In this document: one piece after another, positions 14,081 through 20,001 of the stretch
Numbering within the stretch: position 1 is the first letter of the stretch
Layout of the letters: the number at the start of each line of letters is the position of its first letter
NCBI GenBank assembly: GCA_938003855.1
Contig: CALKXD010000105.1
Span: forward strand, 1-37,276
Direction of reading: 5' to 3'
Source of the DNA: an uncultured Granulosicoccaceae bacterium
GTDB taxonomy: Bacteria > Pseudomonadota > Gammaproteobacteria > Granulosicoccales > Granulosicoccaceae
Length of the DNA: 37,276 bases
Made by a program: the position numbers and the translations under genes
Notes under the pieces: generated by a model
Told to the model about the DNA's origin: nothing
What the model saw: only the letters and a program-made list of their open reading frames with translations
Database searches by the model: none

Positions 14081-14455
14081 ATGACGATCAAATTCAAAGA
14101 CGGGCAAGTGGTAGACGGATTTGCTGAAATGGGAGAAGTCATTCTGGCACTGGCAGCAGCGTACAAAAGCAGCGGCGTACAACAGGACTCACTGCAAACC
14201 ACTGCGTCTGTTGTAATCAACGCTGCAAAGAAACTGAAATACGACGTTGAAGGAATAAACCCGAACGACGCATTGACGATTTTTTACTACCCGAAAAACG
14301 GCATGCACCTGATGCTGCCTGACATCGATGATCTAACCAGCCCGCTACCCGACCCCTATCCACTGCCGAGCTTTTATCGACCGGCAAAAATCATGGACGC
14401 CGGGCAATTCCGGCTGCACCGGATCGGTGAATATACATCGCAGAAATGCCTGTAA
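14081..14455 (+). CDS. Unknown 124-aa protein preceding YcaO
   Basis: I do not recognise this family. The 124-residue product has an ordered-looking N-terminal part (about 1-85), which includes the helix-like EMGEVILALAAAYKSS and the strand-like ALTIFYYPKNGMHLML. A proline-rich stretch, LPDPYPLPSFYRPAK, is followed by a polar tail ending EYTSQKCL with the only cysteine at the next-to-last position. No signal peptide or membrane segment is seen. The ATG at 14081 has AGG ten bases upstream; a TTG nine bases earlier is less likely. It sits 49 bases upstream of a YcaO enzyme on the same strand, so it could be the YcaO substrate or a partner protein. The tail is poor in Cys/Ser/Thr compared with typical azole precursors. 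Confidence 0.7.
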   Translation: MTIKFKDGQVVDGFAEMGEVILALAAAYKSSGVQQDSLQTTASVVINAAKKLKYDVEGINPNDALTIFYYPKNGMHLMLPDIDDLTSPLPDPYPLPSFYRPAKIMDAGQFRLHRIGEYTSQKCL

Positions 14456-14504: not shown

Positions 14505-15770
14505 ATGACTGTGAGCCTTAGCTTTACAAAGCTCTGCGACTCTGCAAAATTCACCCGCGAAGTTGCGGGTCAAGACACTGGCAATCAGCACCAGCACGTT
14601 GCCGAGGTTGTTGTGCAGTTACAGACAACTGAGGGCTTCGATTGGTGCTGTGTTACGACGCCACCGGATGCCCCCGGCTTATCACTCAGTTATGGCACAC
14701 TGGGGTCAGGGACTGATCAGCAGGTCAGTTTCTCTGGTGTCGCTGACACCGTGCTTCAATCGCTGCGATCTGCCGCAGGCGAGGCCTGTGAATTCGCCGC
14801 GCTGTTCAACAATAAAAGCGCGGCCAGCGCCTCACAAGCAGCCGGGCTCGAAGCCGGGCTAAAGCCCCTCAAGAGCGGCTGGCTCGACGCGCTCCATGCA
14901 CAACGTCATGACCAACACCTGGTTATAGCCGAACACTTTTGCGATCAGCAACCACGCCTGCTGCCAGCCGCACTATGTTTTGCCGCTCCGTACTTCAATA
15001 CAAAACTCGACCGGCAGATATCACTTTCATCCGGAATGGGTTGCGGTATATCGCGGGGTAAAGCCGCCGCACACGGGTTATTTGAAATTATAGAACACGA
15101 CGCTGTCGTTGGCTGGTGGATCTCAGGACAAAAAGCGCGCTTTTTCGAGCCCGGTGAAATCAATCAAAGCTCCAGGTACCTACAGCTAATGCGGCAGGGC
15201 AACCCGGGGCGGCGGGAGACACACCTGCTGCAACTGCAGTCGGCGACAGAGTTTCCCGTGGCGGCGGCAGTATCGTTTGATCAACACGGTCAATGCTTCG
15301 CCTGCGGTACTGCTTGCCGGCCCGATATTATCGCTGCCGCCAACTCAGCCATCAGGGAAATGTGCCAGATGGAATTCGGACACCATGCCGTTCGAGCCAA
15401 GATACAGCAGCACGGTATAAACAGTCTGAGTGTGAATGATCACGCCCAACTTCATCGGGCACAGCTGATCACCCGGGATTTATTTTTACCACTCATCAAT
15501 ACCGTTAAAACCGGTGCGATTTCGCTACGTAAAAACCCGGGGGCAACACCACAGTCCGAGGCAACATCAGATAAACAGCTGAATAGCATCGCATCGAAAG
15601 TTGATGCCTATGTAGTTCGCTATCCAGACAGATCTGGACGAGCAACCGTATGCAAGGTAGTATCCCCTAGACTGAGACCGCTCGTAAAATCAGAGGATAG
15701 CAGCGCTTACAACAGCAACGCATCCTCTCCCGATAGCCCATCCCGCTTGTTCGAGGGGGTAATGCCTTGA
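14505..15770 (+). CDS. Stand-alone YcaO-domain protein
   Basis: This 421-aa protein is predicted to be an ATP-dependent YcaO enzyme. The family activates peptide-backbone amides to make azolines, thioamides or amidines. Three YcaO ATP/Mg regions are visible: SAAGEACEFAAL with Glu93 and Glu96; LSSGMGCGISRGKAAAHGLF, which runs into EIIEHDAVVGWW with Glu194 and Glu197; and ACRPDIIAAANSAIREMCQM with Glu285. The C-terminal core DAYVVRYPDRSGRATVCKVV resembles the family's final strands. A common ERDA is EHDA here, and no PxPxP C-terminus typical of azoline-forming members is present. No E1-like, TfuA or dehydrogenase partner is nearby. The ATG at 14505 is chosen for fit; an in-frame upstream start at 14427 would overlap the previous gene. 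Confidence 0.85.
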   Translation: MTVSLSFTKLCDSAKFTREVAGQDTGNQHQHVAEVVVQLQTTEGFDWCCVTTPPDAPGLSLSYGTLGSGTDQQVSFSGVADTVLQSLRSAAGEACEFAALFNNKSAASASQAAGLEAGLKPLKSGWLDALHAQRHDQHLVIAEHFCDQQPRLLPAALCFAAPYFNTKLDRQISLSSGMGCGISRGKAAAHGLFEIIEHDAVVGWWISGQKARFFEPGEINQSSRYLQLMRQGNPGRRETHLLQLQSATEFPVAAAVSFDQHGQCFACGTACRPDIIAAANSAIREMCQMEFGHHAVRAKIQQHGINSLSVNDHAQLHRAQLITRDLFLPLINTVKTGAISLRKNPGATPQSEATSDKQLNSIASKVDAYVVRYPDRSGRATVCKVVSPRLRPLVKSEDSSAYNSNASSPDSPSRLFEGVMP

Positions 15771-15832: not shown

Positions 15833-17818
15833 TTGAAACTGCAGATAACCGTTTTCGGACAATTCGAAGTCAGCTTTAACGACCAACGCGTACCGCTCAA
15901 GTCTAAAAAAGGCGAAGCGTTATTAGCCTATGTGGCTCTAAGCCCGCGCGGTGTTGTCCGGCGTGATTCGCTGAAAGCACTCTTATGGCGTGACTCCGAA
16001 GAAAAAAAAGCGCAAAACAATCTCCGGCAGGCGGTCTGGGCAATTGCAAAAGCTCTGGAAAAGGTTGGCTACAGCGGCTTCGAATCCAACCGCTCACAAA
16101 TAACACTTGATCTAGAATCAATTTCCGTTGATGCGGTCGAACTTCTCAATACCGTCGCCACTGGAAATCCAGATACCTTACTGATCACAAACCCGCACGT
16201 TTTTGATAGTGTCCTTGAGGGCTGTGAAGATATCAGTAATGAATTCGGCCAATGGCTGTCTTCCCTGTCAGCCCGTTTTCGAGCCAGTCTGCTCAGAGAA
16301 CTGGGCAACTCACTGCAAACCGAAACCCCTGACCAACACACGCTGCAAGCGGCCGCCGTATTACATGCACTAGAACCACTCAACGAAATAGCCTGTCAGG
16401 TGCTAATGCAGAGTAAAGCGGCTTCGGGAGACACAGCAGCAGCACTCACGGTTTACCAACACCTGTGCCGCGAAATGGATGAGCAACAGGGAATGGAGCC
16501 GTCAGAGAAAACCCAAGACCTGGCAGTTGCCATAAAAAACGGGACATTCAGCCCAAACAGACACGCAGCAGAAGGTCCACACACAGGCCTCGGCAACTCG
16601 GGCCGACCGTGCATCGTCCTGTCAGACATCGAGATCGCTGGCGCAAACGCCCAGCAATTACGCCTGATAAACGGATTTCGGCACGAGTTTCTTGCCTCAC
16701 TTATACAATTTAAAGAATGGCAGATCGTCGACGGCCGTCGTCACACGACAACGGCCACGACCGACACCAACGGCATTCCCCGATCATACTCACTCGAGAT
16801 GTCGGCAATCGCCATCGAACAGTCTTTGAGGATTATCCTCACTCTCAAAGAAACCAACACCGATAATTATATCTGGGGCGACAAGATCGAGGATCGTCTG
16901 GAGAACTACCTATCCAGCCAGGCAGATATCATCAGACGACTTGCAGCGGCGCTCAACATCCGGGTCTCCGCAGACCGGCTAGCGCTATTCGGCACACAGA
17001 AAATTCATCCACTTGACGCATTTGATCGCTGGTTGGTCGCCGAAGAGTTAATCCTAAGTATGGAACAGCCGGCCTGGCTGCGGGCGGAATACCTGCTCAC
17101 AGACTTAATCGCAGACTATGAGTCGTTCGCCAGAGCCCACAGCGCCCTGGCCCAGATGGAGAACTCCAGGCAATTGTCTTTTCCAGGAGCAATGAGCTCG
17201 GAGGATCGGCGGGAGATAGCACTGATTCACGCGCGACGATCAGTAGCACTTGACCCCAACGACAGTAGAAACCAGTTGTGCCTGGGCTGGGCAAGAGCGA
17301 TGGACGGACAATATGCCGGCGCTGAAGTAGCGTATTTAAAAGCACACCAGCTCAACGAAAACGACCCGTGGACGCTGATCTCTTCAGCAATGGGTCTGGC
17401 GTTTTGTGGAAATCAACAACAAGCCTCCCGTTTATCAAAAGAAGCCGCCTTGCTCACCACCGACCCATCCAATCTATATTGGTCCTTCCAGGCCGCTATT
17501 GCGTTCCTCGACAATGACATGGATGGCTGCATCCGCCTGTCCAAACTTTGCGACGAAGTAACCGCCGACGTGCTGGCATGGCATACCGCAGCACTGGCTT
17601 TATCCGGACACATCACAGCAGCCAGCACCCTGAACAAGCGTTTTGTTGAGGTCACCCGCGAGCTATGGCAACGGGACCCGAGACCAACAGATAAAAATAT
17701 CGCGCAGTGGCTGCTGACGAGTTTCCCGATAAGAGAACCGAAAAAGTGGCAAAGCCTGCGTGACGGATTAAAAATAGCGGGACTCGATGTGTCCGGTGTA
17801 CATCCACCGCTACAGTAA
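15833..17818 (+). CDS. SARP/BTAD-type transcriptional activator with TPR region
   Basis: This 661-aa regulator starts with an OmpR-like winged helix (about 1-95: LQITVFGQFEVSF, RRDSLKALLWRD, NNLRQAVWAI). A BTAD bacterial activation domain follows (about 100-235), ending near QGMEPSEKTQDLA. A middle region (about 255-390) resembles the TolB-N/FlgO-like module that often follows such domains, and the C-terminus (about 395-640) is alpha-helical TPR-like, including HARRSVALDPNDSRNQLCLG. The TTG start is the only sensible one: the domain begins at once and no ATG or GTG lies in frame upstream. It begins 62 bases after ycaO, so it probably belongs to the same transcription unit and controls it (inference). 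SARP-like regulators are best known from antibiotic clusters. Confidence 0.85.
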   Translation: MKLQITVFGQFEVSFNDQRVPLKSKKGEALLAYVALSPRGVVRRDSLKALLWRDSEEKKAQNNLRQAVWAIAKALEKVGYSGFESNRSQITLDLESISVDAVELLNTVATGNPDTLLITNPHVFDSVLEGCEDISNEFGQWLSSLSARFRASLLRELGNSLQTETPDQHTLQAAAVLHALEPLNEIACQVLMQSKAASGDTAAALTVYQHLCREMDEQQGMEPSEKTQDLAVAIKNGTFSPNRHAAEGPHTGLGNSGRPCIVLSDIEIAGANAQQLRLINGFRHEFLASLIQFKEWQIVDGRRHTTTATTDTNGIPRSYSLEMSAIAIEQSLRIILTLKETNTDNYIWGDKIEDRLENYLSSQADIIRRLAAALNIRVSADRLALFGTQKIHPLDAFDRWLVAEELILSMEQPAWLRAEYLLTDLIADYESFARAHSALAQMENSRQLSFPGAMSSEDRREIALIHARRSVALDPNDSRNQLCLGWARAMDGQYAGAEVAYLKAHQLNENDPWTLISSAMGLAFCGNQQQASRLSKEAALLTTDPSNLYWSFQAAIAFLDNDMDGCIRLSKLCDEVTADVLAWHTAALALSGHITAASTLNKRFVEVTRELWQRDPRPTDKNIAQWLLTSFPIREPKKWQSLRDGLKIAGLDVSGVHPPLQ

Positions 17819-18224: not shown

Positions 18225-18647
18225 ATGAACATCAGTCAAAGTCATCATATGAGCGCTACCAAAAAACAACTGCTCGATCAGTTGAACTTCATCACTAACA
18301 GGCTCACGACAGAGCAAGTAAAAACCCTGATCATGGAAGCTTCTACGCTGCTCTCAAGCCAAAGCACTTGCCGCCCGAAATCCGCACCGCTGCAAACGCT
18401 GAGCGCCCGGGAAGTGGAAGTCCTGGTTCTGGTAGCGAGTGGTTACAACCGCCGTAATATCGGTGTATCACTCGGTATAACGGCAAATACTGCAGCGCGG
18501 CACATCGCGAATATCTATACCAAGCTGGGGATCGGGTCGGTCGCTGAAGCAACCAGCTTCGCCTATGACAACAGGCTGATAGCAAGTAGCAGACACCCGA
18601 CAGCCATTGCCGGTAATGACATCGAGCCGGCAACCGCCGGCGCGTGA
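18225..18647 (+). CDS. Small LuxR/GerE-type HTH transcriptional regulator
   Basis: This 140-aa DNA-binding protein has a C-terminal LuxR-type helix-turn-helix at about residues 57-115: LSAREVEVLVLVASGYNRRN, GVSLGITANTAARHIANIYT, KLGIGS. The usual R-E-x-E-V-L pattern and the recognition helix with TVxxHxxNIxxKL-like spacing are recognisable. About 55 N-terminal residues form a helical region without a recognisable receiver or autoinducer domain, so it could be a stand-alone effector or need a partner. The ATG at 18225 has AGGGAA about eight bases upstream; a second ATG at 18249 is possible. It lies downstream of the SARP gene on the same strand and may regulate the YcaO block (inference). Confidence 0.83.
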   Translation: MNISQSHHMSATKKQLLDQLNFITNRLTTEQVKTLIMEASTLLSSQSTCRPKSAPLQTLSAREVEVLVLVASGYNRRNIGVSLGITANTAARHIANIYTKLGIGSVAEATSFAYDNRLIASSRHPTAIAGNDIEPATAGA

Positions 18648-18942: not shown

Positions 18943-20001
18943 TTATTCACCCAGGCCCCTCATCCACCGCATCGCCTCCTCACCGTCGGCCGGGTCTTTG
19001 GCGGTACGAACCATCGTATTAAGACTGATATGCGGCCATCGAATTCTTCCACCGCTGTTATCGAACATATCAAAAAAATCCAGCATGACTTCCTGCATAT
19101 ACTGCATCACTACTATAGGATCACCATTGTTATCTGATTCTCCCTCAAGCTCCATCACCCAGAACGTTGAACGCATCACTGCAGCATCTGCCTGCTCGAC
19201 AATAAACGGGGTATTGACGATACCGCCGGTCTCTATCTCTGTGCTGACCGAGAACTTCATACCGGTCTTTACATTGGTAGGAGTCGCCGCCTGAAGCAAT
19301 CCGTGAAGATTGCGCAGGTCCAGATTGTTCGGAAAAAATTCGTTAGCCGGCGCGACAAACTTCTGATACGGCGCCAGATAATTCTCCAGCGGGTCATCCA
19401 GCGGCACCTGCCCGGTAGCAGTCAAAAACGGAAACGGATTCACGTCCTCTATAACGACCGGATTTTTACCGTCTATATTTTCGGCAGTCCCGAGAGCGAG
19501 AACAGAATTTCCATGCGGGATCGTCCCCAGGCGTGCGATATCAGCACCACTTTTATGGTGGTTTAGAATCTGAAGCCACAAACCAGGTTCATGATGAATC
19601 GCTGCAACCTCCCCCTCCTTGGCCTTGCCGCTGACCGGGTTATCCTCTGACCGGAACTGCTTGATCAGCTGTTCATAATCAAGTGCGACGATGGTTTGAT
19701 CCAGATTGTCATCGGTCTCGCGTATCACACCCCGGTTAGGCACCCCCTTGTCAGCCGTCTTTAAAACCAGTGTTTCATTGTATTGATTGGCTAGCACGCG
19801 ATAGTCACGTCGATCACCACCGATTTCACTGCCATCACTAAACGGCAGCGCAATCATATTCCAGCCGCGCCCCGCAAATCGATCAGCGTTCTGCCACACC
19901 CCGGTAAGGAGCTGTAACGCACCAAGATCTGTAACGTCACTATTAGCGACACCAAAGTATCGCGAATTACCTATTCGCCTGGAGAGCGCATCTTTATCCA
20001 T
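18943..20001 (-). CDS. Conserved protein, possible nitrobindin-like heme-binding barrel
   Basis: This 352-aa protein has no signal peptide. The segment LGALQLLTGVWQNADRFAG (27-45) resembles the opening strand of nitrobindin/FABP-like beta-barrels (LxxLxGxWxG). Other conspicuous stretches are GWNMIALPF (47), DQTIVALDYEQLI (101), AAIHHEPGLWLQILNHHKSG (133), IARLGTIPHGNSVLALG (155), STFWVMELEG (278) and RIRWPHISLNTM (319). I recall proteins of this type annotated as heme-binding beta-barrel proteins, but heme binding is an inference. The ATG has GGAG seven bases upstream. A degenerate relative lies at 12961-13859, on the far side of the YcaO block. A 15-base palindrome lies 28 bases upstream of the start codon. 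Confidence 0.72.
   Translation of the reverse strand: MDKDALSRRIGNSRYFGVANSDVTDLGALQLLTGVWQNADRFAGRGWNMIALPFSDGSEIGGDRRDYRVLANQYNETLVLKTADKGVPNRGVIRETDDNLDQTIVALDYEQLIKQFRSEDNPVSGKAKEGEVAAIHHEPGLWLQILNHHKSGADIARLGTIPHGNSVLALGTAENIDGKNPVVIEDVNPFPFLTATGQVPLDDPLENYLAPYQKFVAPANEFFPNNLDLRNLHGLLQAATPTNVKTGMKFSVSTEIETGGIVNTPFIVEQADAAVMRSTFWVMELEGESDNNGDPIVVMQYMQEVMLDFFDMFDNSGGRIRWPHISLNTMVRTAKDPADGEEAMRWMRGLGE

Follow-up and report, generated by a model that had tools for sequence, protein, structure and literature searches.

A small protein family with a conserved C-terminal cysteine as candidate substrate of an adjacent stand-alone YcaO enzyme in Granulosicoccaceae and Alphaproteobacteria

Based on the consistent linkage of a family of small proteins to a YcaO enzyme and the conservation of a single cysteine in its tail, we propose, with a probability of roughly 0.68, that P0001, encoded in a 37,276-nucleotide stretch of DNA from an uncultured Granulosicoccaceae bacterium (hereafter the window), is a ribosomally produced substrate with a folded leader, which is modified at its tail Cys by the adjacent stand-alone YcaO without TfuA. 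Members of this family, which we found in Alphaproteobacteria and Granulosicoccaceae by way of the neighboring YcaO gene, have an N-terminal folded domain that a Tyr/Pro hinge connects to a C-terminal tail of the form R-(I/V)-(G/A)-(D/E)-Y-x4-Cys-x. In P0001 the hinge is SPLPDPYPLPSFYRP and the C-terminus is FRLHRIGEYTSQKCL, a polar tail with a final Lys-Cys-Leu, in which the sole Cys of the protein (codon 14447-14449) is the penultimate residue; the translation thereby bears out an earlier note on this DNA, which had described an open reading frame with a proline-rich hinge, a short polar tail and a lone Cys-Leu end. The YcaO gene lies downstream on the same strand, and 49 bp separate the stop codon of P0001 from the ATG at which it probably begins, an in-frame GTG at 14427 being an alternative start (Table 1).

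Table 1. Features of the candidate YcaO operon and its surroundings, in window coordinates
Feature	Position	Strand	Evidence
Candidate YcaO substrate P0001, 124 aa + stop	14081..14455	+	Translation; leave-one-out profile rank; alignment A3
Hinge YPLPSFY, residues 93-99	14357..14377	+	Y93 and Y99 invariant, 39 members
C-terminal tail RIGEYTSQKCL, residues 114-124	14420..14452	+	R114, Y118 and C123 invariant, 39 members; tail composition, 54 members
Stand-alone YcaO (P0002), 421 aa from ATG 14505	14505..15770	+	PF02624 E 1.9e-28
BTAD/TPR transcriptional regulator, 661 aa from TTG	15833..17818	+	PF03704 E 4.3e-9; family profile E 2.6e-230
Small LuxR-type regulator	18225..18647	+	PF00196 E 1.4e-12

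Conventional searches with P0001 recovered no usable match in Pfam, NCBIfam or PHROGs, no usable homologue by plain search of genome_contigs and viral_contigs, and, in 192 related genomes, nothing apart from P0001 itself and three partial matches, all weak (E 3.4e-4 to 4.4e-3). Two family members found no match among plasmids, none of six proteins was matched by PADLOC, Rfam gave no match, promoter and terminator scans returned no more than in shuffled sequence, and the one match of PDB sequences to the profile of alignment A3 (E 0.11) was taken as chance. The YcaO proved to be the more informative entry point. At E 1e-6 it has a relative in one other of the 192 related genomes only (G040), in two copies, both followed by a BTAD regulator, and the convergent small gene at these copies ends in FRIGDYTISHCG or FRVGDYCSSQCA, resembling the window's RIGEYTSQKCL. 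In a scan of genome_contigs with the YcaO alignment, the tail R-[IVLM]-[GAS]-[DE]-Y-x4-C-x closes one open reading frame in 53 of the best 80 (of 344) loci; two of these are the G040 contigs again, and counting in the window and the two G040 loci yields 54 distinct loci, all of which carry both the YcaO and the BTAD regulator. Followed by a stop, the pattern occurs in 56 of the 21,741 stop-to-stop reading frames of the loci, all 56 being family members (54 distinct, as two loci are present twice), and in 0 of 434,820 shuffled frame ends. Relatives occur in the culturable genera Stappia, Bradyrhizobium, Mesorhizobium and Belnapia. Ten further loci of a Rhodobacter/Tabrizicola type (L065, L070, L084, L087-L089, L091, L093, L098 and L099) encode a relative that ends in LARYFMR(H/K/R)CR and sits between the BTAD regulator and the YcaO; its Cys is second from the end in all ten, and six of them had surfaced as low-scoring matches to a leader-only profile (E 0.16 to 7.6).

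The linkage of the family to the enzyme and the regulator is seen most clearly across the 88 distinct YcaO loci, a count that leaves out L073 and L095 (same contigs as L008 and L009) and the shorter copies L001, L005-L007 and L010-L017: a precursor-type protein is present in 64 of the 67 loci with an adjacent BTAD/TPR regulator (54 of the main and 10 of the Rhodobacter type) and in none of the 21 without one. The exceptions are L036 and L048, short contigs that end inside the regulator, and L102 from Albimonas, with YcaO, BTAD regulator, flanking DNA and no detectable precursor. A class-level YcaO search found seven other genomes, with loci lacking both precursor and BTAD regulator. Approached from the side of the small protein, a 39-member profile matched 6 of 398 Pseudomonadota genomes, among them the window's own, and 4 of 385 Alphaproteobacteria, with one genome common to both, and in all eight genomes other than the window's own, YcaO, BTAD regulator and a haem-peroxidase-like gene adjoin the protein. 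In one of these (L114, genome G680) the YcaO is in three short pieces, through either decay or sequencing error, with regulator, peroxidase and precursor intact; in another (L120) the contig breaks off within it. L117 and L118 probably repeat the records L043 and L069. The C-terminus is Cys-x in seven of the eight and Cys-Gly-Pro in L121.

Since the tail pattern was used to collect the 54 main members, the presence of the tail Cys in 54 of 54 is partly circular; the tests free of that pattern are the leader-only profile searches and the Rhodobacter-type relatives. In the same 385 Alphaproteobacteria the leader-only profile matched four genomes, namely three of the above eight and G954, missing that of L121, whose leader is divergent. 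The weak G954 frame (E 0.002; local leader-only score on its contig 3.5e-6) lacks such a tail, and no YcaO lies on the 4.7-kb contig that carries it; reading like a chance frame, it was rejected as a YcaO-free homologue. The same profile recognizes seven of eight newly fetched loci, all seven with Cys second from the end (two of the seven probably being L043 and L069 again), and every significant leader homologue that it found among the first loci has the Cys. Within the genomes sampled there is thus no convincing homologue lacking the YcaO or the tail. The earlier reading of P0001 as a YcaO substrate or partner is thus supported: neither homologues widespread without YcaO nor an unconserved tail was found, the equivalents of Y99, Y118 and C123 being invariant, and that of R114 nearly so, in a 46-member alignment that includes four Rhodobacter-type proteins. 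The Cys near the end is the only invariant nucleophile; the residue after the tail Tyr (Thr at position -6 in P0001) is Thr, Ser or Cys in 50 of 54 members and Ala or Val in 4, which agrees with the earlier expectation of few modifiable sites.

AlphaFold2 modelled P0001 with a mean pLDDT of 77.6 and its Bradyrhizobium relative in L031 with 92.4, the last six residues of the latter being lower (72). The confident L031 model, in which the last helix of a helical domain extends as far as residue 132 of 136 and the Cys is among the lower-confidence final residues, fits the earlier idea of a leader plus small core. In both models the predicted helix of the tail continues almost to the Cys; this does not resemble an open core and counts against the substrate reading. 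Fold searches of the PDB with both models gave no match at E 0.001 or Z 2, a result that does not by itself prove a different fold; none of the 39 members matched an NCBIfam or Pfam family below E 0.03, nor did any match the NHLP/Nif11 proteusin leader families of these collections at E 0.1.

The window's YcaO clears the PF02624 cut-off of 25.7 with 100.2 bits; in NCBIfam it matches the azoline SagD model best, at 75.6 bits, below the cut-off of 219, and it scores 22.6 bits, likewise below cut-off, with the McrA thioamidation model. Of the glutamate pairs and QxE motif, which we take to be ATP/Mg binders, E93, E194, E197, Q288 and E290 are kept in 50 of 50 family sequences and E96 in 49. In the YcaO tree 59 precursor-bearing rows group with nine in which no precursor was detected; contig ends truncate L028, L036, L048 and L081 but do not account for L030, L055, L059, L090 and L102, and the first four of the latter five share the tree group and lack precursor and BTAD regulator despite flanking DNA. 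The ten Rhodobacter-type enzymes form one supported group; long branches render the window's own place unsure. No TfuA-like frame was detected by phmmer in any precursor locus with the TfuA of the window's genome as query, which matched only L014/L021, L017/L024 and L022, none a precursor locus; that TfuA belongs to a separate YcaO-TfuA pair on contig C287 (L128 655-3296). The gene families common to many loci are the YcaO, the BTAD regulator, the precursor, the peroxidase and a protein of about 180 residues, the rest being overlapping antisense frames by coordinates; no C protein, azoline dehydrogenase, exporter or protease is among them. Compared with classical TOMM systems and their several Cys/Ser/Thr sites, there is one invariant site only, and an RRE or FMN dehydrogenase is not among the widely common families. 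The approximately 180-residue protein has no Pfam or NCBIfam match and lies on either side of the cluster in 20 of the 54 precursor loci (e.g. L056 14452-14997).

A relative of the animal haem peroxidases is encoded in 44 of the 54 main loci and in 9 of the 10 Rhodobacter-type loci. Q95, H99, R206 and H311 are invariant in all 21 aligned sequences and presumably correspond to the distal Gln/His, the catalytic Arg and the proximal His of the superfamily; of three tested against PF03098, L037 was above the cut-off (8.5e-8), L031 just below it (1.6e-5) and L056 gave no match. The gene is absent at the window and G040 loci and was not found in the G040 genome, which is 82% complete. The best match in the window's own genome, on contig C133 (L127 1099-2742), was rejected as a partner, being unlinked to the YcaO and split over successive frames by stops, and an FMP-type haem-binding protein near the window's operon (18943-20001, minus strand; NF040572 E 5.3e-73) was rejected as a stand-in as it has no relative in any other locus searched. 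The Mesorhizobium loci L069, L074 and L079 carry a second haem-peroxidase relative upstream of the YcaO. The LuxR-type regulator, 407 bp beyond the BTAD/TPR regulator, has counterparts near both G040 loci (phmmer E 8.8e-19 in L008 and 4.4e-13 in L009) and no phmmer match in the other loci searched; it is linked to the system only in the window's family of bacteria.

In light of the above, we posit that the N-terminal ~100 residues of P0001 act as a folded leader or docking domain, which the Tyr/Pro hinge would join to the short C-terminal tail, and that the YcaO would activate a backbone amide of this tail with ATP. Given that the protein family travels with the YcaO and that its tail has one conserved Cys, the YcaO very probably modifies this protein. 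That the tail Cys is the site is probable to a lesser degree, and we would put at about even odds that the product is what appears the likeliest one, a single five-membered thiazoline ring formed from Cys123 and the preceding residue. On weaker grounds, the peroxidase of most relatives would probably oxidize the product further, at the ring or the conserved tail Tyr, and the BTAD regulator, as a fixed partner, would probably control, or respond to, the modified protein. As the window and G040 loci are without a peroxidase gene, a ring formed there would stay as made.

The reality of the P0001 frame itself needs to be established against chance, as it has no Pfam, NCBIfam or PHROGs family and no direct homologue by plain search, and its leader alone is not recognized by the leader-only profile (E 0.57). 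Nevertheless, a family profile trained without the window places P0001 first of its 735 open reading frames (E 1.4e-6; next best 0.38) and does so again when both G040 proteins are also withheld (E 2.5e-5; next best 0.087); together with the match in the tail and the same YcaO and BTAD neighbors as in distant taxa, this makes a fortuitous resemblance of an unrelated or non-coding frame very improbable. The frame is real, and its membership of the family rests on its whole length and neighbors, not on the leader alone. A role as partner instead of substrate, wherein P0001 would be an adaptor or a sulfur or redox carrier using its terminal Cys while the YcaO modifies something else, is unlikely, though a good deal less so than chance: a lone Cys close to a mobile C-terminus would befit a thiol carrier, a folded domain is predicted, and no exporter or protease is among the gene families found in many loci. 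Against this, ThiS-type sulfur carriers have a Gly-Gly terminus, and no other small protein family presents itself as a substrate candidate across the loci, save the approximately 180-residue protein in 20 of 54.

A somewhat stronger contender, still well behind, is that the YcaO thioamidates a backbone amide of the tail, for example beside the invariant Tyr or Arg, with the Cys holding sulfur or a metal or playing another role. R114 and Y118 match the Cys in conservation, and a TfuA is present elsewhere in the window's genome; moreover, the thioamidation of a folded ribosomal protein by the Escherichia coli YcaO, in a bacterium without TfuA, described in PMC13063428, speaks for this alternative. 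It is countered by the lack of a TfuA-like frame in any precursor locus, by the pairing of the genome's own TfuA with a YcaO of its own, and by the enzyme being nearer the SagD than the McrA model, both scores being below cut-off. With the Cys the only invariant nucleophile and TfuA missing, we consider a thiazoline more likely than a thioamide.

Among the closest known systems are azoline-bearing YcaO RiPPs with nitrile-hydratase-like leaders, for example MprE/MprC, which likewise combine a folded leader, a C-terminal core and a YcaO modifier, and in an engineered core of which a single Cys suffices (PMC12455567). They differ in having two to six azolines against one site here and an FMN oxidase in place of the BTAD regulator and haem peroxidase; furthermore, the 39 members have no sequence match to NCBIfam or Pfam families and the two models no fold match in the PDB. 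The E. coli YcaO with its substrate uL16 and the streptamidine family similarly employ a YcaO without C protein or TfuA (PMC13063428, PMC8442711 and PMC4603692), and uL16 illustrates that folded proteins can serve as substrates (PMC13063428). In contrast to the former, a dedicated candidate substrate gene adjoins the YcaO here; streptamidine belongs to different bacteria and a different peptide family; and the present system differs from both in its dedicated BTAD regulator and, in most relatives, its haem peroxidase. The thioamidated YcaO-TfuA RiPPs also place a small gene-encoded candidate substrate beside the YcaO, including in Bradyrhizobium, for which PMC8120280 deals with TfuA clusters; the precursor loci here have no TfuA-like frame. 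In the literature searched, most subscription journals being outside its scope, we found no description of this YcaO/BTAD/precursor system and no YcaO paired with an animal-type haem peroxidase; queries combining YcaO, SARP and Alphaproteobacteria, RiPP and animal heme peroxidase, or Granulosicoccus and YcaO returned nothing there, and the only match for YcaO, peroxidase and precursor peptide, judging by its abstract, concerns Brevibacillus genomes.

As no exporter or protease is among the widely common gene families, the modified protein may stay whole in the cell. We offer, as a tentative and rather doubtful extension, the idea that Proteobacteria might have a novel type of YcaO system, in which a stand-alone YcaO, mostly together with an animal-type haem peroxidase, might modify a small folded protein at its C-terminal Cys (or Tyr), this protein being kept whole as a redox or signaling cofactor protein and read by a dedicated BTAD/TPR regulator. 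The targets of YcaO enzymes outside classical clusters are called an open question in passages of PMC4603692 and PMC13063428. Here an enzyme, a candidate substrate and a likely site come together, and relatives in culturable genera make the reading testable; the cooperation of a YcaO with an animal-type haem peroxidase, if true, would add a pairing absent from the literature searched.
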